Source of the DNA: Nymphaea colorata
Lineage: Eukaryota; Streptophyta; Magnoliopsida; Nymphaeales; Nymphaeaceae
Direction: 5' to 3'
DNA length: 64,000 nucleotides
Assembly: GCF_008831285.2 (NCBI RefSeq)
Contig: NC_045147.1
Span: 11,659,427-11,723,426, forward strand
Shown: one piece after another, positions 1,543 to 64,000 of the stretch
How positions within the stretch are numbered: the first letter of the stretch is position 1
How the letters are laid out: the number at the start of each line of letters is the position of its first letter
Position numbers and translations under genes: made by a program
The notes under the pieces: model-generated
The model's input: the letters and a program-made list of their open reading frames with translations, nothing else
Told to the model about the DNA's origin: nothing
Database searches by the model: none

Positions 1543-1592
<50 letters not shown>

Positions 1593-3144: not shown

Positions 3145-3312
3145 TTTCCTGGAAAGTACTGTTCCTGCAATTAGCGCAACTATGGGACAATCTATCACAA
3201 GCTTATTGTGAAAATAGAAGGATTAATCGGAAACTGAGTAGGAAGGAAATTCAATCGAAGCAGGAAGTATGTCTAAGCATGAGCACGCCAACATGAATAG
3301 TCACCTCGCGCA

Positions 3313-3320
3313 TTTATATA
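3313..3320 (-). promoter_or_regulatory. Candidate TATA box of SDR gene 1
   Basis: On the minus strand the sequence reads TATATAAA, about 170 bp upstream of the ATG at 3144. This is a plausible distance for a plant TATA box plus a 5' leader. It is a motif match only; AT-rich DNA gives such matches by chance. Confidence 0.4.
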
Positions 3321-4601: not shown

Positions 4602-4639
<38 letters not shown>

Positions 4640-9151: not shown

Positions 9152-10199
9152 TCGCGTGGAGAGTTCTGGCTCCTACGATCTTGCACTTGGCAACAATCTT
9201 CCAAACTGGTTTTGGGAAGATGGAAACTATGGCCAAGTTGCCAATAAAATGCTACGTCTTTCCTAACATCCTCTGCCTCGCTTTCACTGGCTTGACCCCA
9301 AACACATGAATCTGTGCACCAAATCATATCAAACTGCTTTTGGCTAACACCTTGAGGTCACTCCATGCGTCAACTCAGTTTGGGAGGCCAAAAAAAAACA
9401 AAAATTAAGACAGCATGCTTGGTAGTTGTGGGGCTTCATTCATTTATTGATGGGACAGTTGTAAGTGGAAAAATCAAGATACGACAAGAGGTTCTATCCA
9501 TGATCAGCTACGTGTTTGATGGGCAGTTCAATTGGTAGGTAAATGTCACAAAAATCGTTGGGAGCAATTAGGGTTCAATTGGTAGCCATGAATAATGTTG
9601 CAAAAATTGACCGACTCCCATTAAGAGTGTATGTATGAGATTAGGCTTAATTGGTAGGTGGGAATAATGTTAGAAAAATCGACCAGTATCAATCTATTCA
9701 CTGGCTGATCAAGAACGATAGCTACCTGTGCGTCTTTTTTTTTTACTATTTTTAAATATTTTAAAGCATTTTTAATCTTTACTTAATTTTTGTACTTTTT
9801 CAGGAATATTTTAATAATTTTGCCTGTTAATTTTTAGAACCGATTCACCGATTAATTGCAACTTCGCCAACTACATTCAGAAACTCGAGTTTTATAAAAA
9901 TAGATTAAAATGAGGCCGATTGGAACCCGTGTGAATCTACCCTTAATCCCATCATCCGAGTGAAGGTCATAGTCCTCTCTTTATCTGATCATCATCCAGA
10001 TTCAACAGTCTTAATATAATATTTAACTGTAACCGGACATATATACTGAAATCCTGGAACGGCGATAAAATCAGTGGGTATTGTTCGCCCTACTACTTTT
10101 GGCCGTGTCACGTTGTGTCCAAAAGATTACATTCATATCAAGCACGGAAATAATGATATAAACAACTTGTTGGTTTATTACAACTATAGTCACAAATAA
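9152..10199. other. Region upstream of SDR gene 2, no gene seen
   Basis: Holds the promoter and leader of SDR gene 2 in its first few hundred bases. No clear TATA box was found at a convincing distance. The rest is AT-rich with no recognised open frame. Confidence 0.5.
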
Positions 10200-36945: not shown

Positions 36946-36956
36946 AGCATCACAGT

Positions 36957-37760
36957 TAGAGGTTGGAAGGTTCTACGTATTTAAAAAAGAACTACAAGTA
37001 TTGTGGTTCATTTTGCAATTCATAAGAACCTAGCTAAGTGCAAATACAAAACCAAAATTTAGATCACCAACTTAACTTGGAGGCGGATCCAAGTAAAATC
37101 TGGCCCACTTATATGATTCATATACAGGTGAAATTTCAACGGCGCCACGTTCCAATAAATATCCAAACAAGAAAGATAAATTAAGGATGAGACAAATTAA
37201 TCTGTTGATAGAAGTCCAGTTGTACTCACTGCACTTATGAGAAAAATGTAGAAACAAAAAACAAACAACACCATGCATTTGCTTTCGAATACCAGATCTG
37301 TTTCGGTGATCATCATGGAAGTGGTGACCTGCTGGGCCACCTTGGGGAAGGAGAGCAATTGGCGGCACCTTCAGCCGGAGAGAGATCGCCGGTGGCGAAG
37401 CTCATGTCAGTAATCACAAGCTTTGCCGTTCAATTCAAAGGCCAAGAGGCGGGTGTATGCATTCAATGCAACCTTGGAGATTGTGTAGGAGGGGAACTTG
37501 AGGGTAGGTGTGGGTTAATTGTGGGTAATTCTAAAAATTCTTAATTTTATATTGATATTTCTGAGTAATTTTTCATCCATTAATTGATTATTTGAATATA
37601 TATTTGACCAGAATTTTCCGACTCGGCCCTTGCTTAGGGGCCACTTGTCCATGCCCTTCTCCGCACCCCACCGATCTTCTGCTCTGTAAAGCCAACCGCA
37701 TCAGAAAGCTGCTTCCTCAATTCATCATCCCCTATAAGCTGCTATCATCATTGTTGATTT
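36957..37760 (-). pseudogene. SDR pseudogene: exon 5 and 3' flank with an insertion
   Basis: Exon 5 homology runs from about 37735 to 37310 (minus), nearest to gene 4. It is broken by a ~130-bp insertion at 37505-37635, an internal deletion around 37655-37665 that shifts the frame, and loss of the last C-terminal codons. The 3' flank (36957-37310) is nearly the same as 56264-56620. No exons 1-4 are seen upstream. Confidence 0.8.
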
Positions 37761-39936
37761 ACAGTCACAAAACTCATTCCCTAGAAATCTTGTGATATTT
37801 TATAATATTTAGCTTTTTTTTAAGAAATCTTAAAAAAGAAAAAGTATTGAAATATATATTACAAAGTGTGAGGCAAGAGTCCCCTTTGTATAAAATGGGA
37901 ACTTGAAAAGGGTCGATGAGATCATATATCAGATTGATCTCCACTCATTTGGCAAGCTACAATCCAAGTGCAATCATTCTTGACCGAGAATATCAACTTA
38001 GAGAGTGCAGTGTTTTGTTTTCTTGTGAAAAGGAAATCTTAGAGATGGAAACGTGTGAGAAGCTGCAAGTGTATAACTTGTGATTGAAAGTATGTTTTTT
38101 CTATTTTTGATTCTTTTGCCACTGGTCGGTTTTAGTTTGAGATGACTGTGATAAGTCATCTATGGTTTCTTTGATGACATTGGTATTCTTTGCAAGAGCT
38201 CCGGCCCCATTATTGGAACAAGACGGGTAAAGAGAATTGCTTGTTTTAACCAAATCAAGCAACTTCAAAGAGGGAAAGCAGATTGAATATGTGGGCACTG
38301 CAGATTGAACTAAATCTTAGAGGCCAAAAAGTGCCCGAGAACTATAAAAATGTAAAAAAGTGTCCTTTGCGAAATTTGAAGAAGTAAATTGTCTTTTCGA
38401 AAAGATGAAAATTCCCTTAAACGAAAAAAAAAACCCTGCAAAACAGAAGATAAAAAGCCTCTGGCATGTCGGGTTTATTTAACCCATGGCGCCTCGCCCT
38501 GGGCACAGTCAAAGAGGACGTTTGATTGCAGGAACGCTTATGTTCCAGAACACCTTCAAACATATTTGCTGCTTTGGGGTAACGCTTTTTCAATGCATTT
38601 CAGGCATCCCCTCCACCCACCCTAAATGCTTACTTAATCCAGATGATTTTGTTGTTGAAACAGGTTTTTTTTGTTTAGCTTTTTTTTTTCAATCTGTTTT
38701 GTGCATAGTCGGCAAACCCGTGACTCATATTTGGATTGACAGATGACCGATCAATGAGTTGACTTGTCGACCCGGTCGAGTTTTAAAATAACCATAATGT
38801 AACAGCAAATCACTACAGCTGAATCGGAAGAGTTAGGGCAAGTTGGGCTGAGTCGGCCCAACCTTGACTCATGACCAAATTTTTTTAGCGATCCGAGCTG
38901 ACTTGAGCAATTCCTGAGCCAATTGGGCCAGTTTGCCAACTACTTTTTTGTGTTGCCTAAGCTTCAAAATAATACCATTCGTGGAAGAAGAGGTCGTCGA
39001 CCTTGTGTTCGCTAGCCGTGTAGAAGAAAAGAAACTACTGAGGAGCTGAATTTGGACACGGAATCAGATCTTCCGAATCAAACCATTGCTGTCACACTTA
39101 TTCAATATGATAATTTTGTATTTAAATACTTTGTAGAACCTTTTTTTCAATTTTTTGAAGGGACCGTTTTGCAATAATCAAGTGAGACATTGGGGCACGT
39201 CGTCTAAGATGTCTTATAAAACGGACATGGTGTCATTACGTCTCTTTTTATTTATCGTTCTTTCTGCCAAAAAGAGTATTACGTAGCTAGTTGGAAAGTG
39301 TATATACAAGTGCACAAAAATATGAAGAGCGTGTCATTGACTTACTCTGGTGCTTGCCTACACAATTGTAAAATGAAGCCAGGTTCTCAAGAATAAGTTT
39401 ACATTAAAAAAAAAAATTGCTTACAAAAAATTGACGTTTTTCCATATTAATCAAACAGCTAGACAAAGTGGCATCTCTTTCTCTTTCTCGAGACACCACG
39501 GTTGACAAAAAAAAAAAATGCATTAGGTAAAATTTATGCCGTGCAAAACTTTATCATCAATCAAACAGCTATGCAAAATGGCATCTCTCTCTCTCTCTCT
39601 GTGTTTGTGTGCATGTGCTTGTGCGTGTGTGTGGGGAGACAGCATGGTTCGAATTATTGCTAGGTGAGGTTGTCCCTCTCATGAACTAGATATTTTATAC
39701 CGTAAGAAATGCAACCAAGTATGGTGTCCTCACTGCAGTTCCTCCGAGTAAAAACCAATAAAACAAAAGGATTTTTGAGAGTTGAATGCCGATCGAATGG
39801 ATGATAAATAATAAGCTTACACCAATTACAGCAACTGATAATCAAAACGGACATTTAGAATCATTACACAGACGCTGCTGTCCTTGTTGTTTTTCTTTAT
39901 TATTTCCACTTGGGAAAGCATCACTGGTGCTGCCAC
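37761..39936. other. Intergenic, no gene recognised
   Basis: A minus-strand frame at 38101-38298 (65 aa) has mixed composition but no recognised family. GGCCCAACCTTGACTC-type sequence at about 38750-38940 resembles the ends of the GGCCC MITEs. The part below 39936 would be the 3' UTR of the KAS-like fragment. Confidence 0.4.
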
Positions 39937-41800: not shown

Positions 41801-43095
41801 AAAATGTTCATTAAACATCAAATGAATTAGAAAACCCAATCTTAACATCACACCAGCCCAAACTTGATTGGTGATAATTGTCAGGCTTATTAAAAGAGAG
41901 AGAGAGACCAAACACACACATATATATATATATATATATAATTGTTTTTATTATTTAGAGCATGATTTTTTTTATTATCTGGAGTGATTCACTTTACATG
42001 TGTTTTGTAGTTGAGAAATCTAGTGTGGGCTATTTCAAAGCATGATGTCTACTTTTAATGTCTGGATTTTTTGTGAACCATTGGTCCTCATTATCAACCA
42101 TCTTAATAAATGATGCAATGGAGGGAATATAACTTATATTCGATAAGGCTTACCAATGTACCCAAGGGTCAATGGAAGCACAAAAAATTACCGCCAAATT
42201 GCAAAGAGACAAATCAAATGTATGGTAAATATATGAATGCTTTCTAAAAATAAGTTACATTCTATTGTAACTTACACAACAAAATTGCAACTAAAATTGC
42301 AATTAACCTGGTTAAATTCAGAGCCGAAAGTTGGTCTTGAACAGCCATATTGGCTTCAAAGCCAATGTGGTAAGATGTACATAAGATCCAGATTTACATT
42401 CGACACTTCTTTCTACATAATGCAGTAAGATGTACCTCCTATGAATATGCCAGAAATAACGTCAGTTCGATTCATGACTCCTCTTGAACTCAGGCCTTTG
42501 TGCGATTAATCTAGTAGGTATACCAAGTATCTTTCTTCCAACATTTCCTATATTAAGCTTCGAACCTCACAAATAACACATAACTTGTTCCCTCCTCCTT
42601 GTATGCAACCTTCCTGTAATGTGTAAAGTGTCATGTTTGTGTAATTTCAAAAGCCGGAATAAGATTCAGAAAAGGACTTCCCTCCACAAGATGAACCTAG
42701 GACATACAACCCATGGCCCTTTTCGATTATGGTTTCAGGCCAGACAAAAATCTTTATACATTCATGATATAGATGTTTGCTAAAGAATAACAATTATTTG
42801 GCAGTTCAAAATTTCAGCAATTAAGGGCATTCCTTTCAAAGGAATGACAATTATAATACACACACATGCGTTCACACAATATAAGAAGCACGTGATTTGG
42901 TAAAGCAGAATGCATAATATGAATCATAAACATAATACATACGACAGTCTATTAATGGTTAAGTCATATAAATAACAGAAAATAGAAACAGTATAATATT
43001 ACTAAAAACAGTTATGCAACATATTACAGTGTACATATTACTAGAAAATTAGAAATCAGAAATAGTCATACATACAAAGAGTATAAAACAGAAAA
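41801..43095. other. Region between KAS-like fragment and the array, no gene seen
   Basis: Contains an (AT)n run at about 41920-41942. I searched for upstream KAS exons (Cys and His-Ala-Thr motifs) on the minus strand and found none. Confidence 0.5.
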
Positions 43096-43390
43096 TCACT
43101 TCACCCTTAGCCTTCACCGTCTGCTCCCCTCTGCTCCTCAGCAAGCAGAGCCATCCACCTCACGGTCTTCGCATAGTGATTGAGCTTTAGGAGCGCATGG
43201 AGGTTCTTCTGCGGATTCTTCTCTCCATCTTTGCGGGCTTCATGACCGACTGCACTTCGTCGAAGTTAATGATTCTTGCTAAATCGACATTTATTATTTT
43301 AGCCCTGGGAAGAATGTACGCAGTCTTTTTCTCTGACACCTTGTCTATGGAACCAACTGATTGTAGACCAATGCCCATCTCGCCAGCCCG
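43096..43390 (-). pseudogene. Ribosomal protein L4 (RPL4/uL4) pseudogene fragment
   Basis: Minus-strand translation gives [14 protein letters not shown], then [19 protein letters not shown]. After a frameshift comes [19 protein letters not shown] and WMALLAEEQR. This is colinear with the C-terminal part of eukaryotic RPL4, the 60S subunit protein (the plant form has [51 protein letters not shown]). At least two frameshifts break it. It forms the left edge of the hairpin array and is the only unit that continues into RPL4 sequence beyond the KP residues. It therefore probably represents the gene piece from which the array arose. Confidence 0.85.
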
Positions 43391-46037
43391 GCCACCGGTT
43401 TGACCACCGGTGGCCGGAATTTCAAGAAGTCATCTAAATGGTGGGAAGAAGTCATCTGAATTTCAAGAAATCGTCTGAAAGGCAGGAAAAAGTCGTATGA
43501 ATTTCAAGAAACCGTCGGAATTTCAAGAAGCCGTCGGAATTTCAAGAGTTAGTCTTCGATCCCTTGGTACCATAGAGTAGGTGTCAGAGAAAAAGACTAG
43601 GTACAATCTTCTCAGGGCTAAGATAACAACGACATTAGTCTTCAATCACTTGGTACCGTAGAGTTGGTGTCGGAAAAAAGACGGGGTACAATCTTCTCAG
43701 GACTAAGATAACAAATGCCGATTTAGCGAGAATCATTAACTCCGACGAAGTGCAGTTGGTCGTGGAGCTCGCGAGATCGACATTTGTCATCTTTGCCCTA
43801 TGAAGAATGTATCAAGTCTTTTTCTCTCACACCTATTCTACGGAACCAAGGGATCGAAGACCAATGCCAATCTCGCCTAAGTTCCACGTCTTCTTGAAAT
43901 TCCGATGGCTTCATGAAATTCTGATGGCTTCTTGAAATTCTGGCCAACTTCTTGAAATTTTGACAGCTTCATGAAATTCAGACAATTTCTTCTTCGACAC
44001 TTTGTCTATGTAACCAACTCATTGTATACCAATGCCGAACTCGCCAACTTGGCCATTGATTTCTCCTCCAAGGCCAGAATTTCAAGAAATCATTTAAATG
44101 AAGGGAAGAAGTCGTCTAAATGGTGGGAAGAAGTCGTCTGAATTTCAAAAAGCCATCGGAATTTCAAGAAGCCGTGGAACACTGGCGAGATCGGCATTGG
44201 TTTTCAATCCCTTGGTTCCGTAGACTAGGTGTCGAAGAAAAAGACTGGGTACATTCTTCTCAGAGGTAAGATAACAAATGCTGATTTAGCAAGAATCATT
44301 AACATCGACGAAGTGCAGTCGGTCATGAAGCTCGCGAGATCGGCATTTGCTATCTTTACCCTGGAAGAATGGACCTAGTCTTTTTCCTAGACACCTAGTC
44401 TACGGAACCAATGAATCCAAAACCAATGCCGATCTCACTTGAGTTCCATGCCTTCTTAAAATTCTGATGGCTTCATGAAATTCTGATGGCTTCTTAAAAT
44501 TCCGATGCTTCTTGAAATTGAGACGATTTCTTCTCAGACACCCTGTCTACGGGACCAACTGATCGTAGACCAATGCCGATCGCGCCAGCCCGGCCACCGG
44601 TGTCACCTCTGGTCGCCAGAATTTCATCTAAATGGGGGGATAAAGTCGTCTGAATTTCATGAAGTCATCTGAATGACAGGAAGAAGTCGTTTGAATTTCA
44701 AGAAATCGTCTGAAGGGTGGGAAGAAGTCGTCTGAATTGCAATAAACTGTCGAAATTTCAAGAAGCCATCGGAATTTCAAGATTCCGTCGGAACTAAGGC
44801 GAGATTTGCATTGGTCTTCGATCACTTGGTATCGTAGACTAGATGTCGGAGAAAAAGACCGGGTACATTCTTCTCATGGCTAAGACAACAAATGTCGATT
44901 TAGCGAGAGTCACTAACTCCGACGAAGTGCAGTTGGTCGTGAAGCTTGCGAGAACAACATTTGTCATCTTTGCCCTCGTAAAAATCTACCTAGTCTTTTT
45001 CTCCGACACCTAGTCTACGAAACCAAGGGATCGAAGACCAATGCCGATCTCGCCTGAGTTCTGCGGCTTATTGAAATTCCAACGACTTCATGAAATTTCG
45101 ATGACTTCTTGAAATTCCAGCCGACTTCTTGAAATTCCAATGGGTTCTTGAAATTAAGACGATTTCTTCTACAACACCTTATCTATAGAACCAACTGATT
45201 GTAGACTAATGCCGATCTCGCCATCCCGGCCACCAGTTTCACCTTCGGTGGCCAGAATTTTAAGAAATCATCTGAACGATGAGAAGAAATCGTTTGAATT
45301 TCAAAAGAATCTGAATGACGGGAAGAAGTCGTCTGAATTTTAAGAAATCGTCTAAATAACGGGAAGAATTCATTGAATTTCAAGAAGTCGAAATTTCAAG
45401 AAGCCATCGGAATTTCAAGAAGTCAGCTGGAATTTCAAGAAGCCGCCAAAATTTCAAGAAGCCATGAAACACAGGTGAAATCGGCATTGTTATTCGACCT
45501 CTTGGTTTCGTAAACTAGTGCCGGAGAAAAGGACTGGATACGTTCTTCTCAGGGCTAAGATAACAAATGTTGATTTAGAGAAAATCATTAACTCTGACGA
45601 AGTGCAGTCAGTCGTCGAGCTCACAAGATCGACAGTTGTCATTTTTGTCTTGGGAGGAATGTTCCCAGTTTTTTCTCTACACCCTATCTATGGATGGAAC
45701 CAAGGGATCGAAGGATGATAAAGATCTCGCCTGAGTTCTATAGCTTCATGAAATTCTGATGACTTCATGAAATTCTGATGGCTTCTTGAAATTCAGACGA
45801 TTCTTTTCTGACACCTTGTCTATGGAACCAACTAATCGTAGACCAATGCCGATCTCGCAAGCCCGGCCACTGATTTCACTTCTAGTGGCCTGAATTTTAA
45901 GAAATCATCTGAATGGCAGGTAGAAGTCGTTTGGATTTCAAGAAATTGTCAGAAGGGCAGTAAGAAGTCGTCTGAATTTCAATAAACTGTCGGAATTTGA
46001 AAAAGCTATCGAAATTTCAAAAATCCGTTGGAACTTA

Positions 46038-46294
46038 GGCAAGATTGGCATTGGTCTTCGATCGCTTCGTACCATAGACTAGGTGTCGGAGAAAAAGACA
46101 GGGTACGTCATTTTCATGCCGAAGATAATAAATGCCGATTTAGCGAGAATCATTAACTTTGACGAAGTGCAGTCGGTCGTGAAGCTCGCGAGATCGGCAT
46201 TTGCCATCTTTGTCCTCAGAAAAATGTACCCAGTCTTTTTCTTCGACACCTAGTCTATGGAGCCAATGGATCGAAGACCAATGCCGATCTTGCC
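46038..46294. repeat. Example hairpin unit of the array
   Basis: Left arm 46038-46150 and right arm about 46186-46294 are reverse complements at roughly 85-90 % by eye. They share unit-specific changes such as CCATAGAC where many other units have CCGTAGAC. The loop holds the RPL4 core TTTGACGAAGTGCAGTCGG. Confidence 0.75.
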
Positions 46295-49200
46295 AGAATT
46301 AGTCTACGGAGCCAAGGGATCGAAGACCAATGCTGATCTTGCCTCTTGAAATTCAAACGATTTTTTCTCTCACACCTCATCTACGGAAGCAACAGATTGT
46401 AGACCAATACTGATCTCGCCAGCTCGGCCATTGGTTTCTCCTTTGGTGGCTAGAATTTTAAGAAATCATCTGAATGGCGGGAAGAAGTCATTTGAATTTT
46501 CAAAAGTCATTTGAATGGCGAGAAGAAGTAGTCTGAATTTCAAGAAATCGTCCAAATGGCGGAAGAAGTCATGTGAATTTCAAGAAGCCATCGAAATTTC
46601 AAGAAAACAGTAGGAATTTCAAGAAGCCATGAAACAATGGCGAGATCGGCATTGGTCTTTGATTCCTTGGTTTTGTAGACTAGGTGTCGAAGAAAAGGTC
46701 TAAGTACATTCTTCTTAGGGGTAAGATAACAAAGGCCGATTTAGCGAGAATCATTAACTCCGACGAAGTGCATTCGGTCGTGAAGCTCGTGAGATTGGCT
46801 TTTGTTATCTTTACCATGGAAGAATGGACCCAGTCTTTTTCTTCGACACCTAGTCGACGGAACTAAGGGATCCAAGACCAATGCCGATCCCACCTGAGTT
46901 CCACGACTTCTTGAAATTCCGATGGCTTCATGAAATTTTTGATGGCTTCTTGAAATTCTGGCCGACCTCTTGAAATTCCAACAGCTTGTTGAAATTCAGA
47001 CGATTTCTTCTCCGGCACCCTGTCTACGAGACCAACTGATTGTAAACCAATACCGGCCACCGGTTTCACCTCCGGTGGCCAGAATTTCAATAAGTCATCT
47101 AAATGGCGGGAACGAGTCGTCTGAATTTCAAGAAGTCATCTGAATGACAAGAAGAAGTTTGAATTTCAAGAAATCGTCTGAACAGCAGAAAGAAGTCGTC
47201 GAAATTTCAAGAAGCCATCGGAATTTCAGGAATCCGTCAGAACTTAAACGAGATTGATCTTCAATCATTTGATACCAAAGAATAGGTGTCGGAGTAAAAG
47301 ACCGGGTACATTCTTCGCATGGCTGAGATAATGAATGTCGATTTAGCGAGAATCATTAACTCCGACGAAGTGCAGTCGATCGTGAAGCTCGCGAGATCGG
47401 CATTTGTCATCTTTGCCCTTAGAAAAATGTACCCAGTCTTTTTCTTTAACACCTAGTATATGAAACCTAGAGATCGAAGACCAATGCCGATCTCGCTTGA
47501 GTTTCGTAGCTTCTTGAAATTCCGACGGCTTCATGAAATTCCGATGACTTCCTGAAATTTCGTTCGACTCTTGAAATTTCGATGGCTTCTTGAAATTCCG
47601 ACGATTTCTTCTCCGACACCTTATTTACAGAACCAACAGATCGTAGACCAATGCCGATCTTGCCACCGTGGCCACCAGTTTCACCTCCGGTGGCCAGAAT
47701 TTCAACAAATCATCTGAATGAAGGGAAGAAGTCATTTAAATTTCAAGAAATCTACATGGTGGGAAGAAATTGTCTGAATTTCAAGAAATCGTCTAAATGG
47801 CAGGAAGAAGTCATTTGAATTTCAAGAAGTCGTCGGAATTTCAAGAAGTCAGCAGAAATTTATAGAAGCCTTTTGGAATTTCAAGTACCCATGGAACATA
47901 GGTGAGATCGGCATTGGTCTTCGATTCCTTGGTTTCGTAGAATAGTTGTCAGAGAAAAGTATTGTTTAGGTTCTTCTCAGGGCTAAGATAACAAATGCCG
48001 ATTTAGCGAGAATAATTAACTCCAACGAAGTGCAGTCGGTCATAAAGCTCGCGAGATCGGCATTTGTCATCTTTGCCCTAGGAAGAATGTATCCAGTCTT
48101 TTTCTCTGACACCTAGTCTATGGAACCAATGGATCGAAGACCAATGCTAATCTCGCCTAAGTTCCACGTCTTCTTGAAATTCTGATTGCTACATTAAATT
48201 CTGATGGCTTCTTGAAATTCTAGCCGACTTCTTGAAATTCCGACAGCTTCATGAAATTCAGATGATTTCTTATCTCACACCTTGTCTATGGAACCAACTG
48301 ATTATAGACCAATGCCGATCTCACCAGACCGGCCACCGACTTTATCTACAGGGGCCAAAATTTCAAGAAATCATTTGAATGGCAGGAAGAAGTTGTCTGA
48401 ATTTTAAAAAACAGTCAAAATTTTAAGAAGTCAGCCTGAATTTTATGAAGTCGTCGGAATTTCAAGAAGACGTGGAACACAGGCGATATCGGCATTGGTT
48501 TTCGATCCCTTGGTTCCATAGACTAGGTGTTGAAGAAAAAGATTGGGTACATTCTTCTCAGGGGTAAGACAACAAATGCCGATTTGCGAGAATCATTAAC
48601 TCCGATGAAGTGCAGTCGCTCGTGAAGCTCGCGAGATCGGCATTCAGTTTTTTTCCCAACACCTAGTCTACGGAACCAAGGGATCGAAAACCAATGCCTA
48701 TCTCACCTGAGTTCCAGACTTCTTGAAATTCCGACGGCTTATGAAATTCTGATGGCTTCTTGAAATTCTAGCCGACTTCTTGAAATTCTGATGCTTCTTG
48801 AAATTCAGACGATTTCTTCTCAGGCACCATTTCTACGAGACCAATTGTTCGTAGACCAATGCCAATCTCGTCAGCCCGGCCACCAGTTTCACCTCTGATG
48901 GCCAGAATTTCAAGAAGCCATCTAAATGGTAAGAAGAAGTCATCTGAATTTCAAGAAGTCATCTGAATGACAGGAAGAAGTCGTCTGAATTTCAAGAAAT
49001 CGTTTGAAGGGCGGGAAGAACTCGTCTGAATTTCAATAAACTATCAGAATTTCAAGAAGTCGACCAGAATTTCAAGAAGCCATCAGAACATCGTGAAGCC
49101 GTCAGAATTTCAAGAAGCTATGGAACAAGAAGTCAACCGGAATTTCAAAAAGCCATGGATTACAGGTGAAATAGTCCTTGGTCTTCGATCCCTTGGTTTC

Positions 49201-49969
49201 ATAGAGTAGGTGCTGGAGAAAAAGACTGGATACATTCTTGTCAGGGCTAACATAACAAATGCCGATTTAGTGAGAATCATTAACTCCAACGAAGTGCAGT
49301 CGGTCATGAAGCTCACAAGATTGGCAGTTATCATCTTTGTCTTGGGAGGAATGTACCCATTCTTTTTCTTCAACACCTTGTCTATGGAACCAAGGGATCA
49401 AAGAACGATGCCAATCTCGCTTGATTTCCATGGCTTCTTAAAATTCTAACGGCTTCATGAAAGTCCGATGGCTTCTTGAAATTCCGGACGACATCTTAAA
49501 CTTTGATGGCTTCATGAAATTCCAATGGCTTCTTAAAATTATGGCAGACTTCTTGAAATTCCGACGGCTTCTTGAAATTCAGACGATTCTTTTCCGACAC
49601 ATTATCAATGGAACCAACTGATCATAGACCAATGCCAATCTCGCCAGTCCGGCCACCGGTTTCACCTCCAGTAGCTAGAATTTTAGGAAATCATCTGAAT
49701 GGTGGGAAGAAGTCATTTGAATTTCCAGAAATCGTTTGAAGGGCGGGAAAAAGTCGTTTGAATTTCAAGAAATCATCTGAAGGGCGGGAAGAAGTCGTCT
49801 GAATTTCAAGAAATCGTCTGAAGGGCGGGAAAAAGTCATCTGAATTTCAATAAACTGTCGGAATTTCAAAAATCCGTTGGAACTTAGGCGAGATTGGCAT
49901 TGGTCTTTGATCACTTGGTACCGTAGACTAGGTGTCGCAGGAAAAGACCAGGTACATTCTTTTCATGCT

Positions 49970-51102
49970 TGTTCGCATCTTCAAATTTTTTGGTTTTTGG
50001 AGTGCTCCAAAAAATGAGATTTTTATTTGAAATGGAGAGAGAAAGGGGACTCACCCATCGGTACGAGGATCAATCGTTCTCGCACCTTTATCAGGGGTAA
50101 TCAATCCAATGGTTATGTCTATTATTTATGCATTTCATTTTAACTTAAACATCTTTTTTTATTCTATATGTTGTGTAAGAAAATATTGAAAGTTTTAATG
50201 TTTCAAACTTTTGAAAAGGTTCTTGAAGAATCATTTAAGAATGTGAAATATTTTAGGGAAAACTAGAATTGAGAAATCTTTGTAAAGATCATTTGGAAAA
50301 CATGAGAAATCATTTTGAAGTCACTTTAGTGTTCTCTTAAGATTTTAAGTAGGTTTGAGATTTTGCTCTAATTCGGTTACTACCTAGTTAGAGCTTCATC
50401 TCATTTTGCTTAAATTCTTTTGGAGAGGTGCTTGTGATCATAAGTGATATTAAGTGATTGTGGATGCGTGAATGCATTGATCCTATATAATTGAAAGAAA
50501 ATAAAACATTCCAAATACAACATTCATCTAAGACATTTCTACCATAACATACATCTAAGATTTTTGTTTATATAGTCAGCATAAATGTTTATGAAGAAAG
50601 AAAAGTTTTGAAAATAGATTGAGGTTGGGGTTGGGGTTGTAGACCATCAAACATGAATTCAATATTGAGTCATTACTTGAGTATTGGTCTTAGTGAAGTC
50701 GATAAATGGAAATGATCTTAAACCATGAGAAAAAAATATTTGAAAGGATGGAGAAGATGAAATACTCTTCTGGAGAGAAAGAGAGATAGAGAAAGGGATT
50801 TCAAAGATTTTTAAACAGAAGATTTCAAAAGGATGAGAAGATGCATATCTCTATATGTATGCATATACGTATATATGCTCTTGACAATGAGGTCTTAACT
50901 TAAGTAGAATGAGAAAATGAAATGAGGTCTTAATTTAAGTAGAATGAGAAAATGAAACTTTTAGAAGAAAGAGGGAAAGAAAGGGAGATAGAAAGAGATG
51001 CATATACATGTGTATATACCATCACATATACACATATATAAAATTTGGTAAAAATGATATTGATTTGAATAGAAAGAAAGATTTTAAAGGAAAATATATA
51101 GA

Positions 51103-51147
<45 letters not shown>

Positions 51148-52530
51148 AAATTTATAGATGAAGACATTTGAGTTGAAAAAAAGATTATAGAGATAGAAAA
51201 TAAGACATTCATGTAGGTATTAAAATAAAATATAGAAGCATAGAGAGAGGAAAATGAAAGGAATCATCATGTTGATACATATGTATATAATATGTATACA
51301 CATATGTGTCTTCATGAGATTAGAAATCAAGAAATGAAAAATAACAGACTTCAAGTTTGATGTAGGCCGAAGGGAAGTTTGGACTCATGCAAGAGTTTAA
51401 GCTAAGTCCCCAAAGCCACATTAGAATGTCTCTTTTAAAAATGTTTTGGAAAGTATGATTTATATAAACATAGAATGTTATTATTTGGTTTGTCACAAGG
51501 GATATATTTCTTCCACCGTTGGTTGTTGAAGAAAAACAAGTAATATAATGAGGCACTCGTTAGGGTTCTTAATTGGGTGATTAGGAAGAAAAATAGCATA
51601 AAATGACATGCAAATACATATTAACATGTACATTTTTGTGAGGATTTTTCTCGGGTTGGACAAGTCCCAACCTCAAAATTTAATATGAAGATAAAGATAA
51701 ACAACCCTAAACCACACTTTCATTCTCACCATACATTCACATATAAATGGAAAACCAAACAACTATGCATGGATAATATATAGACAATCTTTAAAGAAGG
51801 AAAAGAGAGAGATTGAGAGCATGATGGAGAGAGAAATGTTCAACTAGGAGGGAGGACATGGTGTAACTATGAAATGATATACCATCTCATCTTCTCATGC
51901 TCCCGGTGCACTTGAGCATAGCCTTTTGACTCTAAACTAGAGATTGAGAACTATCTCATACGGCCATTGGGAGATGAAGAAGGGGAAAAAATGAAGAAGC
52001 AAAACAAGACAATTTTTGAGAAATGAAATAACATGATTCAAGCATGAAAATAAAAGATCATCTCATTTTCTCATGCTCTCGGTGCACTCAAGCATAGCCT
52101 CTTGACTCTAAAATGGAGATTGAGGGCTATCTCCTTTGACCATAGGGAGAGGAAGAAAAGAGAAAAATAGGAGGAAGCAAAAGAACAACAAGAATGTATT
52201 CAAGAAATGAGAGAACATGATTCAAGCACATCTCCAAATTCGTTCTAAATCCGATTTTGTTTAGTCGGTTGTCAACTCATTCGAGCGTGCGACTTGGGTT
52301 TTTTTTTTAAAAAAAAATGTTTTGGTGTGAGAAATGAGTTCTGAAAACAAAGGAAAGGTCCGTGCACGTGCGACACTCAAATTTTGTCGTTTCAAACTTG
52401 ATTCTAATTTTGGGTTTGAAATGCTTGATTTCGATTTGAACTTAGGTTTTGGATCTAATTTGGATCCAAAGGTTGGGTTTTGTATTTTAATAAAAGAACG
52501 TATCATTTGAAAAAATTCGGGTTGATTACA
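49970..52530. mobile_element. Probable solo LTR inserted in the array
   Basis: Unrelated 2.56-kb sequence interrupts a unit between TTTTCATG and TCGAAGATAA, which are adjacent in other units (compare about 46110-46125). It starts TGTTCGCATC and ends GATTACA (TG..CA). Flanks are ATGCT on the left and ATGTC on the right. The uninterrupted unit near 46115 has ATGCC, so each flank differs from a 5-bp target duplication by one C-to-T change. No gag or pol is visible, so a long solo LTR fits best. It contains an internal ~180-bp tandem duplication (about 51885-52230, CTTGAGCATAGCC../CTCAAGCATAGCC..) and an (AT)n run at 51105-51145. Confidence 0.6.
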
Positions 52531-55500
52531 ATGTCGAAGATAAAAAATGCCGATTTAGCGAGAATCATTAACTCCGACGAAGTGCAGTCGGTCGTGAAGC
52601 TCGCGAGATCGATATTTGTCATCTTTGTCATCGGAAAAATGTACCCAGTCTTTTTCTCCGACAGCTAGTCTATGGAACCAAGGGATCAAAGACCAATGCC
52701 GACCTCACCTGAGTTTTGCACCGTCTTGAAATTCCGACGGCTTCTTCAAATTCCAGCCGACTTCTTCAAATTCCGATGGCTTCTTGAAATTCAGACGATT
52801 TCTTCCATAACACCTTATCTACAAAACCAACAGATCATTGACCAATACTGATCTCGCCAGCCCGGCCATCGGTTTCACCTCTGGTGGCTGGACTTTTAAG
52901 AAATCATCTGAATGATGGGAAGAAATCGTTTGAATTTCAAGAAGTCATTTGAATGGAGGGAAGAAGTCGCCTAAATGGCAGGAAAAAGTCGTTTGAATTT
53001 CAAGAAGCCATCGAAATTTCAAGAAGTCAGCCAGAATTTCAAGAAGCGGTGGAACACTGGCGAGATCAGCGTTGGTTTTCTATTTCTTGGTTCTGTAGAC
53101 TAGGTGTCGGAGAAAAATACTGGGTATATTCTACTCACGGGTAAGATAACAAACGTTGATTTAGCGAGAATCATTAACTCCGATGAAGTGCAGCCGGTCG
53201 TGAAGCTTACGAGATCGGCATTTTTATCTTCACCCTGGAAGAATGGACCCAGTCATTTTCTCCGACACCTAGTCTACGGAACCAAGGGATCGAAGACCAA
53301 TGCCGATCTCACCTGAGTTCAATGACTTCTTGAAATTCCAACGGCTTCATGAAATTCTGATGGCTTTCTGAAATTCCAACCGAATTCTTGAAATTCCAAT
53401 GGCTTCTTGAAATTCCGGCTGAATTCTTGAAATCCGATGCTTCTTGAAATTCAAATGATTTATTCTCCGACACTCTATCTATGGGACCAACTGATCGTAA
53501 ACCAATGCCGATCTCACCAGCCCGGCCATCGGTTTCACCTCCAGTGGCCAGAATTTCAAGAACTCGTCTAAATGGAGGCAACAAGTCATCTGAATTTCAA
53601 GAAGTCATCTGAATGACAGGAAGAAGTCTGAATTTCAAGAAATCGTCTGAAGGGTGAGAAGAAGTCGTCGGAATTTCAATAAACTGTTGGAATTTCAAGA
53701 AGCCATCGGAATTTCAAGAATCCGCCGAAACTTAGGCAAGATTGGTCTTCAATCACTTGGTAGGGTAGAATAGGTGTCGGAGAAAAAGACCCGGTACTTT
53801 CTTCTCATGGCAAAGAAAACAAATGCCGATTTAGCAAGAACCATTAACTCCGACGAAGTGTAGTCGGTCGTGAAGCTCTCAAGATCGGCATTTGACATCC
53901 TTGCCCTGGGAAAAATGTACCCAGTGTTTTTCTCTGACACCTAGTCTACAAAACCAAGGGATCGAAAACCAATGCGATCTCGCTTGAGTTCTGCGGCCTC
54001 TTGAAATTTCGACAGCTTCATGAAATTTTGATGGCTTCTTGAAATTCTAGTCGACGTATTCAAATTCCGATGGCTTCTTGAAATTTAGACGATTTCTTCT
54101 CCGACACCTTATCTATGGATCAACTGACCGTAGGCCAATGTCGATCTCTCCACGCCGGCCACCGATTTCACCTTCGGTGGCCAGAATTTAAAGAATCATC
54201 TGAATGGTGGGAAGAAGTCGTTTGAATTTCAAGAAATCTGAATGATGGGAAGAAGTCGTCTGAATTTCAAGAAATTGTCTAAATGGCGGGAAGAAGTCGT
54301 CGGAATTTCAAGAAGTCGTGGAACATAGGCGAGATCAGCATTGGTCCTTGATCCCTTGGTTTCGTAGACTAGGTGTCGAAGAAAAATACTGGATACATTC
54401 TTCTCAGGGCTAGGATAACAAATGTCAAGACGAAGTATAGTCGGTCGTGAAGCTCACAAGATCGGCATTTGTCATCGTTGTCATGAGAGGAATGTACCCA
54501 GTATTTTTCTCCGACACCTTGTCTATGGAACCAAGGGATCGAAGAACGATGCCGATCTTTCCTGGGTTTCATGGCTTCTTGAAATTCCGGATGACTTCTT
54601 GAAATTTTGATGGCTTCATCAAATTTTGATGGCTTCTTGAAATTCTGGCCGACTTCTTGAAATTTTGACGGCTTCTTGAAATTCAGACGATTCTTTTCCG
54701 ACACCTTGTCTATGGAACCAACTGATCGTATACCAATGCCGATCTCGCCAGCCCAGCCACCGGTTTCACCTCTAGTGGCTAGAATTTCAGCAAATCATCT
54801 GAATGGCAAGAAAAAGTCCTCTGAATTTCAAGAAGTCATTTGAATTTGAAGAAATCGTCTGAACGGCGGGAAGAAGTCGTCTGAATTTTAATAAATTGTC
54901 GAAATTTCAAAAAGCCATCAAAATTCAAGAATGTGTCGAAACTTAGGCGAGATTGGCATTGGTCTTTGATCACTTGGTACCGTAGACTAGGTGTCGAAGA
55001 AAAAGACCGGGTACATTCTTCTCATGGTTAAGATAACAAATGCCGATTTAGCGAGAATCATTAACTTCGACGAAGTGCAGTCGGTCGTGAAGTTCACGAA
55101 ATCAGAATTTGTCATCTTTGCCCTGGGAAAATGTACCCAGTCCTTTTCTCCGACACCTAGTCTACGGAACCAAGGAATCAAAGAGCAATGCTGAACTCGC
55201 CTAACTTCCACCGCTTCTTGAAATTCCGATGGCTTCATGAAATTCTGATGGCTTCTTGAAATTCCGGCTGACTTCTTCAAATTTCGATGGCTTCTTGAAA
55301 TTGAGACAATTTCTTATCTGACACCTTATGTACGGAACCAACAGATCATAGACCAATACCGATCTCGCCAGCCCAGCCACCGGTTTCACCTCTGGTGGCC
55401 AGAATTTCAAGAAATCATCTGAATGGTGGGAAGAAGTCGTTTGAATTTCAAGAAATTGTCTAAATAGCAGGAAGAAGTCATCGGAATTTCAAGAAGCCCT

Positions 55501-56263
55501 TGGAAGTTTATGAAGTCTGCTGAAATTTCAGGAAGCCATCGGAATTTCAAGAAGCCGTGGAACTCAGGCAAGATCGACATTGGTCTTCGATCCATTGGTT
55601 TTGTAGACTAGGTGTCGGAGAAAAAGACTAGGAACATTCTTATCAGGCCTAAGGTAACTCCGACGACATGCAGTCGGTCGTGAAGCTCACAAGATCGGCA
55701 TTTGTCATCTTTGCCCTGGGAGGAATGTACTCAGTCTTTTTCTCCGACACCTAGTCTATGGAACCAAGGGATCGAATACCAATGCTGATCTTGCCCGAGT
55801 TCCACATCTTTTTAAAATTCCAACGACTTCGTCAAAATTCAATGGCTTCTTGAAATTCCAGTCGACTTCTCTAAATTCCGTTGGCTTCTTGAAATTTAGA
55901 CAATTTCTTTTTCGACTCCCTACAGAACCAACTAATCGTAGACCAATGCCGATCTCACCAACGCGGCCACCGGTTTCACCTCCGATGGCCAGAATTTCAA
56001 GAAAAGTCATCTGAATGGCAGAAAGAAGTCATCTGAATTTCAAGAAGTCATCTGAATGATGAGAAGAAGTCGTTTGAATTTCAAGAAATCGTCTGAACGG
56101 CTTGAAGAAGTCGTCTTAATTTCAAGAAACCGTCGAAATTTCAAGAAGCCATGGAACTCAGGCGAGATGGGCATTGGTCTTCTATCCATGTACTCATCCG
56201 TGTTACACTCCTTTTAGCTTTGAGAGTTAGGTTGAGGGGGTATGCCATGTCGCATTTTTAGAG

Positions 56264-56800
56264 GTAGAGGTTGGAAGGTTCTACCTATTTAAAAAAGAAC
56301 TACAAGTATTGTGGTTCATTTTGCAATTCATGAGAACCTAGCGAAGTGCAAATACTAACCAAAATTCAGATTCATTTTATAAATTACCATCTTAACTTGG
56401 AGGCGGATACAAGTAAAATCTGTCCATAAATGATTCGTAAACAGGTGAAATTTCAATGGCGGCATGTTGAAATAAATATCCGAACTAGAAAGATAAATTA
56501 AGGATGAGACAAATTAATCTGTTGATAGAAGTCCAGTTGTATTCACTGCACTTATGAGAAAAAAGTAAAAACAAAAAACAAACAACACCCTGCATTTGCT
56601 TTCGAATACCAGATCTGTTTCGGTGATCATCAGAACCCGACATTCTTGCTTTCATGGAAGTGGTGACCTGCTGGGCCACCTTGGGGGAAGGACAGCAACG
56701 CGTACCAAATTGGCAGCACCTTCAGCCGGAGAGAGATCGCCGGTGGCGAAGCTCATGTCAGTAATCACAAGCTTTGCCGTTCAACTCAAAGGCCAAGAGG
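56264..56800 (-). pseudogene. SDR pseudogene: truncated exon 5 and 3' flank
   Basis: Nearly the same as 36957-37443 and nearest to gene 4. Exon 5 homology from about 56798 down to 56633 ends abruptly upstream at GGCCAAGAGG|ATTATG, so the YxxxK part is gone. The C-terminal codons are better kept than in the 36957 copy. It sits immediately right of the RPL4 array. Confidence 0.8.
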
Positions 56801-57349
56801 ATTATGTTCACCAAATTTTAGTGCTTGATGTCTCGCATTGACAGAGGACGACTGCCAGTTCGGTCCATACTCATTTAGGCTACTTGGAGAAATGTTTAAT
56901 AATTGGAGACATACAAATTATTTAGCCAACACCGCTACATGTTGATTCTTTTGGAGCGATCAACTATGACTGGGGCCAAGGCCAAGCAAGTCAAATTATT
57001 AGTAAAGGTTTCTAATAACAATAAGAACGATTTTGCGTTTGTTTGCTTGATATACCCTTGGTGTTTCAATTTAACCCAAAAACAAAACTACAAAATATTA
57101 GATTTCATTGGCAAGGAGAATCTAACTGCAGATACTAACCAAATACAGATTCATTTTAAATTTATATGTCCATCATAACCTGGCAGACAATCCAAACTTG
57201 AACTTAAGATTGCCATTGCCTCAAATTTCAGCAAATATCCAAACAAGAAAGGTAAACCAAGATAGATTAAGTTGAGGGCGAAAAAAGAAAAACAAAAAAA
57301 CAAAATCATTACACATTTGCTTTTGAATTCCAGAACTTTTTGGTGATCA
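56801..57349. other. 3' flank of SDR gene 4
   Basis: About 57120-57345 is homologous to the 3' flanks of both SDR pseudogenes (ACTAACCAAAT.CAGATTCATTTTA and CAAATATCCAAACAAGAAAG words), confirming gene 4 as their nearest relative. No other gene is seen. Confidence 0.55.
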
Positions 57350-59524
57350 TCAGAACTTGGCATCCTTACCTTCAAGGAAGTTGTGGCCAGAAAGGCCACC
57401 GGCGGGGAGGAGAGCAACACACACCAAATTCGCGGCCCCTTCAGCCGGAGAGAGATCGCCGGTGCCGAAGGTCATGTCAGTCATCACATAGCCAGGGGTG
57501 GCACTATTGACACAAGCTTTGTCGCCCAATTCAAGGGCCAAAAGCCTCGTGTATGCGTTCAACGCAATCTTGGAGACGGTGTAAGAAGGAACCTTGAGGG
57601 GCCACTTCTCCATGGCCTGTTTGGATTTCAGATCTTCAAGGAACGTGTCTAACACCTCATCAATCTTTTGCTCCGTCAACCCCTCTGTATCGCTCAATTG
57701 CTTCCTCAACTCATCATCCCTGAGAAACTGCTAGCATCATTGTTGATTTACTGTCAATTTTATATATCTATCTTTGGTTTAAGAACACTTGGAAAACAAA
57801 AAAAAATTGATTTGTTTACTACTTGCAAAAAAAAAAATAAAGCCATATGAGCTTACGGGGTTGAACCAGGGAACAGATTAATGTTGGAGACTTACAAGAA
57901 GTAGTCCGTAGACGGATGAGACGTTGACAATCCTGGGCTTGTAAGAAGAGGGGCGCAGGAGAGGGAGCAACGCCTTGGTCACCCTCTTGGTTCCGTAGAA
58001 GTTGGTCTCTATGCAGTCCTTTGCCGACTCCTGCTTCTCCAGTATCCTGTTTAAGCATGGAGGATGTACCTGTGTATAATCCTTTTCTCAAGGAGAAAAA
58101 TAAAAAAATCAACACACATGTACAAACACACACACACTCACAGTTTTCAAGATTCTGAATTACACTTCAAAGAAGACAATAGTCTTTGACAATAGCTTCA
58201 ATTAAGGAAACTTTTATACCAGTAATTGTCATGCACACAGACCTGTGCACATTTGCGCCGTGTACAAGCCTGGGATCATGACCAGGTTCCCAAATCTTTA
58301 TGGGGTAAACGACTCGTTAATTGTTTTAGTTGCCGACTCGTTATTCCTTAAAATATCAACACCCTAAATTTTCTTATCTAAGCGTAAATGGTTAGGTAAT
58401 CTATTCATCTATATTGAAGAATTGATCTAAAGGAATAATTCATTGTATAGAATCCTTGCCCAGAGCATGCATTACATATAGTTTAAATGGTCAGAAAGAA
58501 CGCTGCCACAGTTGAAGCTGAAACTGTTCCACAAAATGTGCAGACGACGGCTTCTTCAGTTTATGGAATCAAATAAAACGCCTCCTAATACAAGGGCATA
58601 CGAATTTCATGAACTAGGAGAGAGGAAGAGGGAGAGGGTACCAGAAAGGTTCTCATGTCTACATTGTTCTGTTCCAAGAACTTCCAATCAGCATTTAGAA
58701 CAGCAGCGTTGTTTACCTGCATCAACAATATATTTTCTGCTTAATCAACCTATGAAAATTAATATACCTTGGGGCTTTTATTTTAAATCAACTTTATGGC
58801 GAGAAGAGGAAAAGAAGCTTCATTGATGAGCGAAAAGTTCGAGGAAACTTTCTTTCACGATGCTTGATACTTGATTGCCCCTACAAAATAGGAAATCAAT
58901 CGAACACCAGGGTTCGATACTCGAGCGCTTTTCTTCCCTCTTGCGAGGAAGGTCTGAACATACAAGGAATTAATTTCTATTATACTTCGTGTCTAATAAG
59001 TTTGGTTTCTGATGTCAATTGATTTTTATTGAAAGCGTTTGACCGACACGTAGGGAGGATGGAAACCTAACAACTTTTGGTTTCTACTTACCAGAATGTC
59101 GATAAATCCAACATGTAGCTTCAACCAGTCGACGAAATTCATCACACTCTGCCGTTGAGTAATATCGAGAGTGTGGAAGATGACCTTCTTCCTCCCCAAT
59201 TGTGCCGCCTCCTGCAGGAACTGTTGAGCAGAGGCTGAAAGTTCCTCTTGTGGCCTACGAGCAGTCATGATGACGGTAAGCCCCTTTTCTGCGAGCTGCC
59301 GGCAGACTTCCAGCCCGATCCCTCGGTTCCCTCCCGTCACCACCGCCACTGTCTCCTCACTCCACCACTCTGAAGTACCCTGCGCTTCCTGCAACCAAAA
59401 TTAAACCGGTCGACGTTTATCATCGGATCGATCCAGAAGATGTATCGGCAGCCAGGTTCTAGGTAACAAATTTCCTTGACATAAAAGTTCTTTGGGGTGT
59501 TTTTCATCAAGATTTGCTCACCAT
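57350..59524 (-). CDS. SDR gene 4: NAD(P)H-dependent short-chain dehydrogenase, SDR114C-like
   Basis: Coding exons in transcript order: 59522-59524 (ATG only), 59092-59388, 58642-58716, 57896-58069, 57350-57727; phase-0 GT..AG introns, all short. The product is 308 aa. It has TGGNRGIG, NNAA, Asn in CIETNFYG (N148), Ser in VNVSSVYG (S177), YTVSK (Y232, K236), and an ATPGYVMTDM loop where the other copies have a VHPG loop. All catalytic residues are present. Exon 3 is two codons shorter than in the other copies, and the start of exon 4 (VHPPCLNRILEKQ) is unlike the others, pointing to a different pocket. It is separated from the other three intact genes by the RPL4 array and over 34 kb. Confidence 0.87.
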
Positions 59525-61364: not shown

Positions 61365-64000
61365 TCCCCCCTCAAACTCAATGGTCCGGAACGAACATTG
61401 AGTTCGAAACGTCCTCGAACAAATGCTTCTACGGATAGAGCTTTGGTGAGAGGATCTGCCAATTGATGAGAGGTAGGAATGTGTCTCACAGAAAGTTGCC
61501 TTCAAGTGACATGATCTCGGACAAAGTGGACATTGAGTTCAATATGTTTACTTTTCTAGTGAAGAACTGGATTCGTTGTCGTATGGGTGGCACTAATGTT
61601 ATCGCACCAAAGGATTGGTGGTTCAGAAGGAGAGACACCCATATCATGTAATAAATATTTAAGCCAAATGATCTCTGCAGCAGTGCTGGCGACTGCCCGG
61701 TACTCAGCTTCAGTGGAGGATCGAGCTAGAGTTTGTTGTTTCTTCGAACTCCAAGTGATCAAATTCCGGCCAAGGAAGACAGCATAGGCCCCAATGGACT
61801 TGCGATCATCTGGACAGCCAGCTCAGTCTGCATCGGAGTAGGCATGCAGGTGAGTGGATGAGTTGTGTCTGAGGAGAAGGCCATGATGAGTGGTGGCTTT
61901 GGCATAGCGTAATATTTGTTTCACTGCATTCTAGTGGTCAATCGTAGGAGTGTGCATGAACTGACAAACCTTATTGACTGCATAGGATAGATCATGCCTA
62001 GTAATGGTGAGGTATTGAAGAGCCCCAACTGTCTGGCGATATAGTGTGGCATCTGAGAAGCATGTTCCAACCTTTGTCAGTGAGGAATTTGCTGGTAGAA
62101 GCGTTGAGATAGGCTTGACACCAGTCATATGTGTTCGAGCCAAAATGTCAATGATATATTTTTGTTGTGACAGGAGCAGTCCTTCTGTTGTTGGAATAGC
62201 CTCAATACCCAAGAAATAATGTAACTCGTCGAGATCTTTAGGAGAGAAGGTTGTACTGAGGCGATGAATTAATTCAGTAACCTGTACAGTAGAGTTACTT
62301 GTGATTAGAATATCATCAACATAAACCATGATAATGATCCTAACTTAATCTGTAATCAAGGTGAACAATGAGGTGTCAGCTTGAGACATTTTAAAGCCCA
62401 TATGAGATAGTGCCTGACTGAGACGATGAGACCAGGCTCTTGGAGCTTGTTTAAGTCCATAGATTGCTTTATGAAGTTTGCACACATAAGATGGGTGATG
62501 TCGATCCTCAAATCCTGAAGGTTGAGCCATATATACATATTCAATCAGATCTCCATGAAGGAATGCATTATTGACATCAAGTTGTTTTATAGGCTATTTG
62601 AGGGAAGTAGAGAGAGATAAAATAGTGCGCACGGTGGCTGGTTTTACAACAGGGCCGAATGTTTCATAGTAGTCGATGCCTTCAATTTGATCATAGCCTT
62701 TGGCGACCAATCGAGCCTTGTAACGTTCCAAAGTTCCATCAGTTTTACGTTTAATCTTGAAGATCCATTTACACCCTATAATGGTATATCTTCGGTTTGG
62801 TGGAACAAGAGTCCATGTTCCATTTTGATGAAGAGCTTGCATTTCTTTGGCCATAGCCTCTTGCCAATGGACTGACTTGAGTGCTTGGACATAAGTTGTT
62901 GGTTCCTGATTGGATCAGTATTGAGTTACAAGAGCAGTGGGAAGAGGGTAGGGTGTTGGAAAAGAGAGTTTGGGTTTTCTCATACCATCTTGTGACCGAG
63001 TGAACATACTATGGGTTCGAAGAGATGGCATTTGAGGATCTGTAGTTGGAGGTTCGGCAGGCATAAGTGTTGTGGATTGGGTGACATTTGGTTCACATGT
63101 AGAACTAGTTAGATTGGATGGTGGCTGACCTGAGGGATTGTTGGGTAAGGGAGGTATCACATGTAAAAGAATAGGTATTGGTGTGGTGGTAGGATGGGTA
63201 ACATCAAGTGATTTTGGCTAATCGAGGAATGGAAAATTTGACTCCTTGAACACAACATGTCGGCTGACAATGATTTTGGAACTTTGTAGGTTGTTACATA
63301 AGTATCCCTTGTGGACATTAGAGTACCCAAGAAAGATGTGCTTGGAGGATTTGGGCTGAACCTTGTGGTCGCGATAAGATTGTAGGTTTGGGTAGACAGC
63401 GCAGCCAAACACTCGCAAAAAGGAATAATCTGGAGGTTGTTTGTGTAGAGTTTCAAAGGGAGACTTGCCTTTGAGTCTGGTTGTAGGAACACGGTTCAAT
63501 AAGTATGCTACTGTGCTGAAAGCATATGTCCAAAATTCTGCTGGAATGCCTCCATGTTTAAGAAGAGAGACCAGTTTCTTCAATGGTGTGATGTTTCCTT
63601 TCAGCAGTGCCATTCTGCTCATGTGTATGAAGGCATGAGATTTTTCTTTCAATAGCATGATCTTGAAAGAATTTGTTAAGCACTATATACTCACCACCAC
63701 CTTCAGATTGGAAAAATTTAATTTTTGTAGCATACATATTTTCAACTTTCACCTTGAATGCTTTGAACGCCTTTTCAACATCAGACTTATATGCTAGAAA
63801 GTAAATCCATGTAAACTTAGAGTATTCGTACATAGTATCGATATATGTCTTTGCTAATCATGGGCACTGGACCCCAGACATCCGAGTGAACAACTGCTAA
63901 AGGTTTAGTGGCCTTATGATCAGATTGGGTAAATGGAAGTGCATGTGACTTCCCAGATTGGCAAGCATCACAAAAATAATTGTTTTTGACATCATAATCA
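61365..64000 (-). mobile_element. Decayed Copia retrotransposon pol (integrase, RT, RNase H), cut by window end
   Basis: Read from high to low coordinates: pre-integrase/integrase start at about 63835-64000, integrase core (63558-63833), integrase C-terminal part (63218-63658), linker, reverse transcriptase with KARLVAKGY (62594-62854), [13 protein letters not shown] (62345-62530) and the YVDD catalytic motif (about 62315-62325), then RNase H with SSTEAEYRA (61556-61762) and the HIPTSHQLADPLTKAL end (61365-61490). The order INT-RT-RNase H defines Copia. In-frame stops at about 61823, 61931, 62345, 62594 and 62915, a shift between overlapping frames near 63560-63660, and a small deletion near 63833 make it non-functional. 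Gag and the 5' LTR lie outside the window. Confidence 0.9.

Follow-up and report, generated by a model that had tools for sequence, protein, structure and literature searches.

A 12.6-kb locus (insert included) in the water lily Nymphaea colorata is built from scrambled pieces of a gene for ribosomal protein L4 (RPL4), arranged as 16 tandem copies of a hairpin whose arms have decayed without clear co-evolution, whose RPL4 frame is changing neutrally and whose CG and CHG sites carry an excess of transitions. With a probability of roughly 0.7, we favor an account in which an RPL4 fragment was scrambled, folded back, amplified and then left to decay neutrally into a mostly inert, satellite-like repeat. 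The order of events, the methylation, the silencing and any past output of siRNA in this account are what we infer from those observations. The window, that is, the whole stretch of 64,000 nucleotides analyzed here, corresponds to C10:11659427-11723426 of the assembly.

The locus consists of an inverted head followed by the units, one of which is interrupted, and is laid out as follows, with unit U02 serving as an example of unit structure:

43105..43345, minus strand: RPL4 pseudogene head, covering about positions 1474-1723 of the RPL4a locus, with a frameshift and a 19-bp gap, opposite in orientation to the units
43341..43386, plus strand: a pair of short RPL4 pieces in inverted orientation, adjoining the head, from about positions 1295-1310 and 1524-1544
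43595..49963, plus strand: units U01-U10 and the first part of U11
44176..44293, plus strand: U02 left arm, antisense 1524-1542, antisense 1297-1320 and sense 1474-1544 of RPL4 (consensus map set on U02 by eye)
44294..44330, plus strand: U02 loop, 37 nt, RPL4 sense, within the slowest-diverging stretch of the unit
44331..44447, plus strand: U02 right arm, repeating the left arm in inverse orientation (end set by eye)
49964..52529, no strand assigned: insert in U11, 2.57 kb, AT-rich and G-skewed, with ATG at both junctions (by eye)
52530..56190, plus strand: the rest of U11 and units U12-U16

All 16 units lie in the same orientation, spanning 43595-56190 on the plus strand, and measure 563-722 bp each, with a consensus of 637 bp. 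On average, they share 0.80 identity pairwise and 0.88 with the consensus (n = 16), and so constitute head-to-tail monomers of common descent, as expected of a satellite. Each carries an inverted repeat that is flanked outward by 19/41-bp repeats in opposite orientation. A sequence-only reading of this DNA had placed the array correctly and had recognized this outward extension by short repeats; its tandem array of one orientation also holds, with the count amended from about 17 units to 16 plus the inverted head. It had overlooked the 2.57-kb insert, the opposite orientation of the head and the three-stretch RPL4 mosaic of the arms.

The units fell into two groups in a FastTree phylogeny (support 0.98), mostly alternating along the array, and unit identity was 0.807-0.818 at lags 2, 4, 6, and 8 versus 0.789-0.802 at lags 1, 3, 5, 7, and 9. 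Together, the alternation and the excess identity at even lags suggest, short of proof, that the array is organized as a dimeric higher-order repeat. The stretch that splits U11 (49964-52529) has no homology to the array, and no terminal inverted repeat was seen among 25 of its 29 inverted pairs listed. Within it, about 180 bp are directly duplicated (51872/52048, 78%).

The identity of the core was established by protein comparison. With plant uL4 residues 268-357 as the tblastn query, all 29 matches at E <= 1 lay in the array or the head; a plus-strand match was present in 15 of the 16 units, with E < 1e-4 in 14, and unit 14, the one lacking such a match, has a 22-nt deletion in its core. 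The RPL4 sequence of the array was closest to plant uL4, the query being a hand-made composite, and the Pfam domain PF14374 matched the head directly from DNA (E 1.9e-9). These matches bear out the claim, made from the letters alone, that the core encodes RPL4.

A protein search across the 407.8-Mb assembly (783 contigs; match counts are lower bounds) scored 17 RPL4 matches, of which three are gene loci and the other 14 lie in the window, the head included; in that search, this is the sole non-gene locus with scored RPL4-core matches. Open frames of 384, 384, and 355 codons occur among these gene loci, which are RPL4a, RPL4b, and L003. In L003 (C10:6471927-6475031), which shares the array's contig, an in-frame stop comes after about 349 residues and intron-like sequence follows it; the locus is possibly a decaying RPL4 paralogue. 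The head is 77.7% identical to RPL4a over 238 nt.

The distribution of matches bears on whether the array stems from amplification of a fold-back or other DNA transposon carrying captured RPL4 sequence; the sequence-only reading had offered the fold-back form as an alternative. Fold-back elements have inverted arms with outward short repeats, and the shape of the unit resembles them. However, the array ends share no repeat, inverted or direct, beyond chance-like matches of 10-20 nt (the best inverted match of the edges scores 15 in a 20-nt alignment), so that terminal inverted repeats are lacking when the array is taken as the element, and no convincing target-site duplication was seen by eye at the array ends, where duplications were sought. 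The unit consensus has no match elsewhere in the window, all 14 non-gene RPL4 matches of the assembly search, as lower-bound counts, fall at the array locus, and the array's only open reading frame of 110 aa or more is a unit frame (54372-54704, minus strand; one candidate) with no homologue in the protein collection at E <= 10. At the scale of the array, the unjoined ends and the absence of copies in the window leave a fold-back transposon unsupported, and we regard a transposon origin of any such kind as highly improbable. A 30-base repeat pattern had no exact match in viral contigs.

The surroundings of the array are repetitive in their own right. The right flank, from 56262, 72 bp past the array edge, duplicates sequence from 36954 onward (56262-56800 / 36954-37449; 85% by blastn, 95% over ungapped columns). 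Repeated SDR genes or fragments occur at 385-9236, 17474-22771, 36954-37767, and 57280-59407, and one SDR exon has as its best solved relatives alcohol dehydrogenase 1 (5o98) and isopiperitenone reductase. The window also holds a PPR gene and, at 61931-63658, retrotransposon fragments with RVT_2 and a retroviral polymerase SH3-like domain.

Mapping of the unit consensus onto the gene loci revealed that both the arms and the loop consist of RPL4 pieces whose orientation alternates, the arms being built from three RPL4 stretches. The right arm reads antisense from about 1541 to 1474, then sense 1297-1320, then sense 1524-1542, and the left arm is its inverse. The piece 1297-1320 is identical in the consensus to RPL4a and RPL4b at 24 of 24 positions (E 4.6e-8) and to L003 at 23 of 24. 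The same order of pieces recurs in the head and in a third partial RPL4 copy within the unit, as short matches that are individually weak (E 0.007-1.5 and 0.09-0.34 to RPL4a); those beside the head are 16 nt and 21 nt long (E 0.09 and 0.34 alone). At the inverted joint there is a 5-nt microhomology, GACAA, common to both source stretches, which is kept in the head and reads GACTA in the unit consensus.

The alternating pieces and the microhomology joint argue that the founder was probably made by template switching and fold-back, and amplified afterwards. A different founding event could have given the same array: a retroposed RPL4 copy carrying a 5' inversion of the twin-priming type, amplified later. 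Twin priming gives 5' inversions in retroposed copies, and upstream 1297-1320 is inverted here ahead of sense 1474 onward, with a gap between them and the 5-nt microhomology at the joint, as it would produce. No poly-A tail was seen next to the head, though, whose RPL4 match ends near 1723, short of the inferred intron, and the extra antisense piece requires one more switch; loss of an intron cannot show in any case because the fragment precedes the first inferred intron of the gene. We consider this retroposition unlikely.

Under template switching, the process probably took two steps. One lysine codon of the RPL4 frame reads TAG in 15 of 16 left arms and 12 of 16 right arms and in none of the 16 third copies, seven of which have AAG while the other nine vary (a crude pattern), and the third copies cluster with the head in the tree (support 0.94). 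This distribution and grouping point to a first fold-back that probably made the mosaic and a second that made the hairpin. An ancestral RPL4 exon fragment would thus have been scrambled into antisense 1524-1542, antisense 1297-1320 and then sense 1474 onward, and a second inverted duplication would have produced a hairpin whose arms of about 117 nt were near-perfect at the time of amplification. Local amplification would then have generated the tandem array of about 637-bp units in its two mostly alternating subfamilies, which, if transcribed, would have been a good source of hairpin siRNA at that stage. Later the array seems to have undergone neutral decay, in which mutations at CG and CHG sites left a mark suggestive of methylation, to what would now be a mostly inert, gene-seeded, satellite-like repeat.

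The hairpins themselves remain strong and are far from their presumed initial state. In the consensus, left and right arms are identical at 112 of 117 positions, and to this extent the description of the arms as near-perfect was apt; in real units, own-unit arm identity is 0.71-0.90, with a mean of 0.79 (0.86 counting G:U), and inverted pairs are 71-86% complementary (25 of 45 pairs listed), which rules out near-perfect arms today. Folding nevertheless exceeded chance: unit 2 (44158-44540) had a fold energy of -192.7 versus -95.0 ± 6.0 in 100 shuffles (z -16.2), and its opposite strand gave z -19.2. Fold energy was -235/-229 kcal/mol for the consensus and -81 to -169 kcal/mol per unit and strand, far below the mean of -66 for 96 block-shuffled plus-strand units, and the longest uninterrupted helix, 84 and 77 pairs in the consensus, was 7-43 pairs in the units. 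Of the sequence-only interpretation, the RPL4 origin and the hairpin potential therefore stand.

Arm identity was no higher within units than between them (0.791 versus 0.790; fraction 0.46 of 10,000 permutations, 0.28 with G:U). Swapping arms among units weakened folding only slightly, from -139.2 to -137.0 on the plus strand (fraction 0.10) and from -134.6 to -133.0 on the minus strand (fraction 0.15), with fractions of 0.03 and 0.09 for swaps inside a subfamily. Column-shuffled units folded about 3% worse than real ones, the observed mean being reached by 0 and 1 of 20 shuffles. There is no clear coupling between the arms of a unit, and the data may be compatible with a weak one.

The RPL4 frame evolves neutrally. 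The three codon positions had changed in 32/416, 36/415, and 30/414 cells, and the synonymous share was 0.26 versus 0.34 expected, which rules out selection on the frame. Transitions relative to the consensus affected 0.195 of CG, 0.181 of CHG, and 0.083 of CHH cells, giving ratios to CHH of 2.3 (1.9-2.9) for CG and 2.2 (1.7-2.8) for CHG by site bootstrap. In unpolarized pairs within the array the values were 0.298, 0.331, and 0.257, a modest CHG excess, whereas eight pooled pairs of paralogues from the SDR region gave 0.272, 0.153, and 0.171, a CG excess with no CHG excess. This control is small, contains some coding sequence and uses certain stretches more than once, and in two of its eight pairs CHG exceeds CHH; measured against it, the array shows the larger CHG excess. 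Plants mark heterochromatin by CHG methylation, and the excess of C-to-T changes at CG and CHG suggests past heterochromatic methylation of the array. The CpG observed/expected ratio, still 1.0 in the array versus 0.59 in the rest of the window, counts against our preferred account and shows decay to be far from complete.

Another feature also counts against that account, since neutral decay does not predict slow divergence. The loop shows 33 changes versus 68 expected from base contexts, in a comparison spanning arms, loop, third copy, and palindrome. The lowest 37-nt window starts at consensus position 126, with an observed/expected ratio of 0.44 reached in 1 of 2,000 site permutations, and the 12 lowest of the scanned 37-nt windows all lie inside consensus 125-176, mainly loop. 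The consensus loop matches RPL4a at 35 of 37 positions and each other locus at 33 of 37, the genes matching one another at 31 of 37, and the inner arms match RPL4a at 56/68 and 59/67. Deletions within the slow stretch in units 14 and 16 speak against an essential role. It may be that exchange between the three RPL4-like copies in each unit brings additional variants into the arms.

Perfect matches to the genes persist. In 43050-56195, with head and insert included, we counted 56 perfect 21-mers to RPL4a, 46 on the plus strand (units) and 10 on the minus strand (head); plus/minus counts for RPL4b and L003 were 10/8 and 1/11. In RPL4a/b, perfect matches are situated close to codons 219-226 and 301-312. 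Two 13-kb control stretches, compared on the plus strand only, had no 21-mer matching RPL4 with <= 3 mismatches. The array keeps a residual capacity to match RPL4 mRNA.

This capacity would come into use if the locus were active, its read-through transcripts folding, being diced into siRNAs and causing the array to be methylated and RPL4 paralogues perhaps to be repressed. The hairpins that both strands still form strongly, the 21-mers to RPL4a on both strands, the CG and CHG transition excess and the slow loop are all consistent with such activity. The CHH transition rates cut both ways: those of the arms (0.071 and 0.088) exceed 0.032 in the loop, 0.045 in the minus-oriented repeats, and 0.035 in the palindrome, yet fall below 0.095 in the third RPL4 copy and 0.126 in the plus-oriented repeats, and this mixture gives no clear sign for or against RNA-guided methylation directed by the arms. 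Against activity are the lack of clear arm co-evolution, whether own arms are compared with others or swapped, the mainly unpaired position of the slowest part, the neutral decay of the RPL4 frame, the drop in fold energy from consensus to units and the absence of any Rfam match at gathering score. We judge an active locus rather improbable. It is very doubtful that the array is, or was until recently, a self-amplified, RPL4-aimed siRNA locus that is itself silenced or methylated and keeps the 37-nt loop as a guide or target. A gene-seeded tandem repeat with a hairpin-siRNA potential that would once have been strong and now appears to be decaying is the reading that we infer.

No Rfam family matched the window at gathering score, which rules out a known RNA family at that threshold. 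Below it, 18 matches fell in 43050-56250, and 17 were to families of miRNA precursors. MIR5638 reached 83.8 bits (gathering 500, E 3.3e-20) and MIR821 reached 85.1 bits (gathering 249, E 1.5e-14); these two strongest matches cover whole hairpins at 46614-46914 and 54304-54586; we judge that such matches reflect long hairpins in general. The arms contain no conserved miRNA/miRNA* duplex of the kind that marks MIRNA genes, the slowest windows being mainly loop. At the foot of the hairpin (unit consensus 286-307 and 1-23), miR396-like stretches occur at edit distance 4 on both consensus strands, a distance reached by 0 of 100 shuffles in a comparison with 22 miRNA sequences, and Rfam MIR396 scores 30 bits versus a gathering score of 80. 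We note the resemblance as a curiosity and not as a claim.

If the preferred account of scrambling, amplification and neutral decay is true, a single locus illustrates the path from a coding exon to a satellite-like repeat through template switching, fold-back, amplification, and decay with a CG/CHG mark. Its 16 replicas of one formerly near-perfect hairpin would then form a natural experiment on the durability of small-RNA capacity, and would also probe whether essential source genes tolerate hairpins derived from them.

Hairpin siRNA loci derived from inverted gene repeats include soybean CHS and maize Mu killer. Like these, the array is a long inverted gene repeat able to pair with its source gene; unlike them, its arms have decayed and its transcription is hypothetical.

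Inverted duplication of protein-coding sequence founds young MIRNA genes and foldback loci, for which drift and death is perhaps the commonest fate, according to the passages of Fahlgren et al. (2007, PMC1790633) considered here. The array was likewise founded on an inverted duplication of coding sequence, and differs from the loci in those passages in that one foldback was amplified to 16 tandem units, its arms form a three-piece mosaic and its slowest stretch is mainly loop. For satellite DNA, the passages of Garrido-Ramos (2017, PMC5615363) considered here state that a satellite can in theory start from any sequence, with rDNA spacer and transposable elements given as seeds. The array shares with the satellites described there its tandem monomers, nested shorter repeats and possible higher-order arrangement; unlike them, it was found here as a single 12.6-kb locus, insert included, and its seed was an exon of a ribosomal-protein gene folded into a hairpin.
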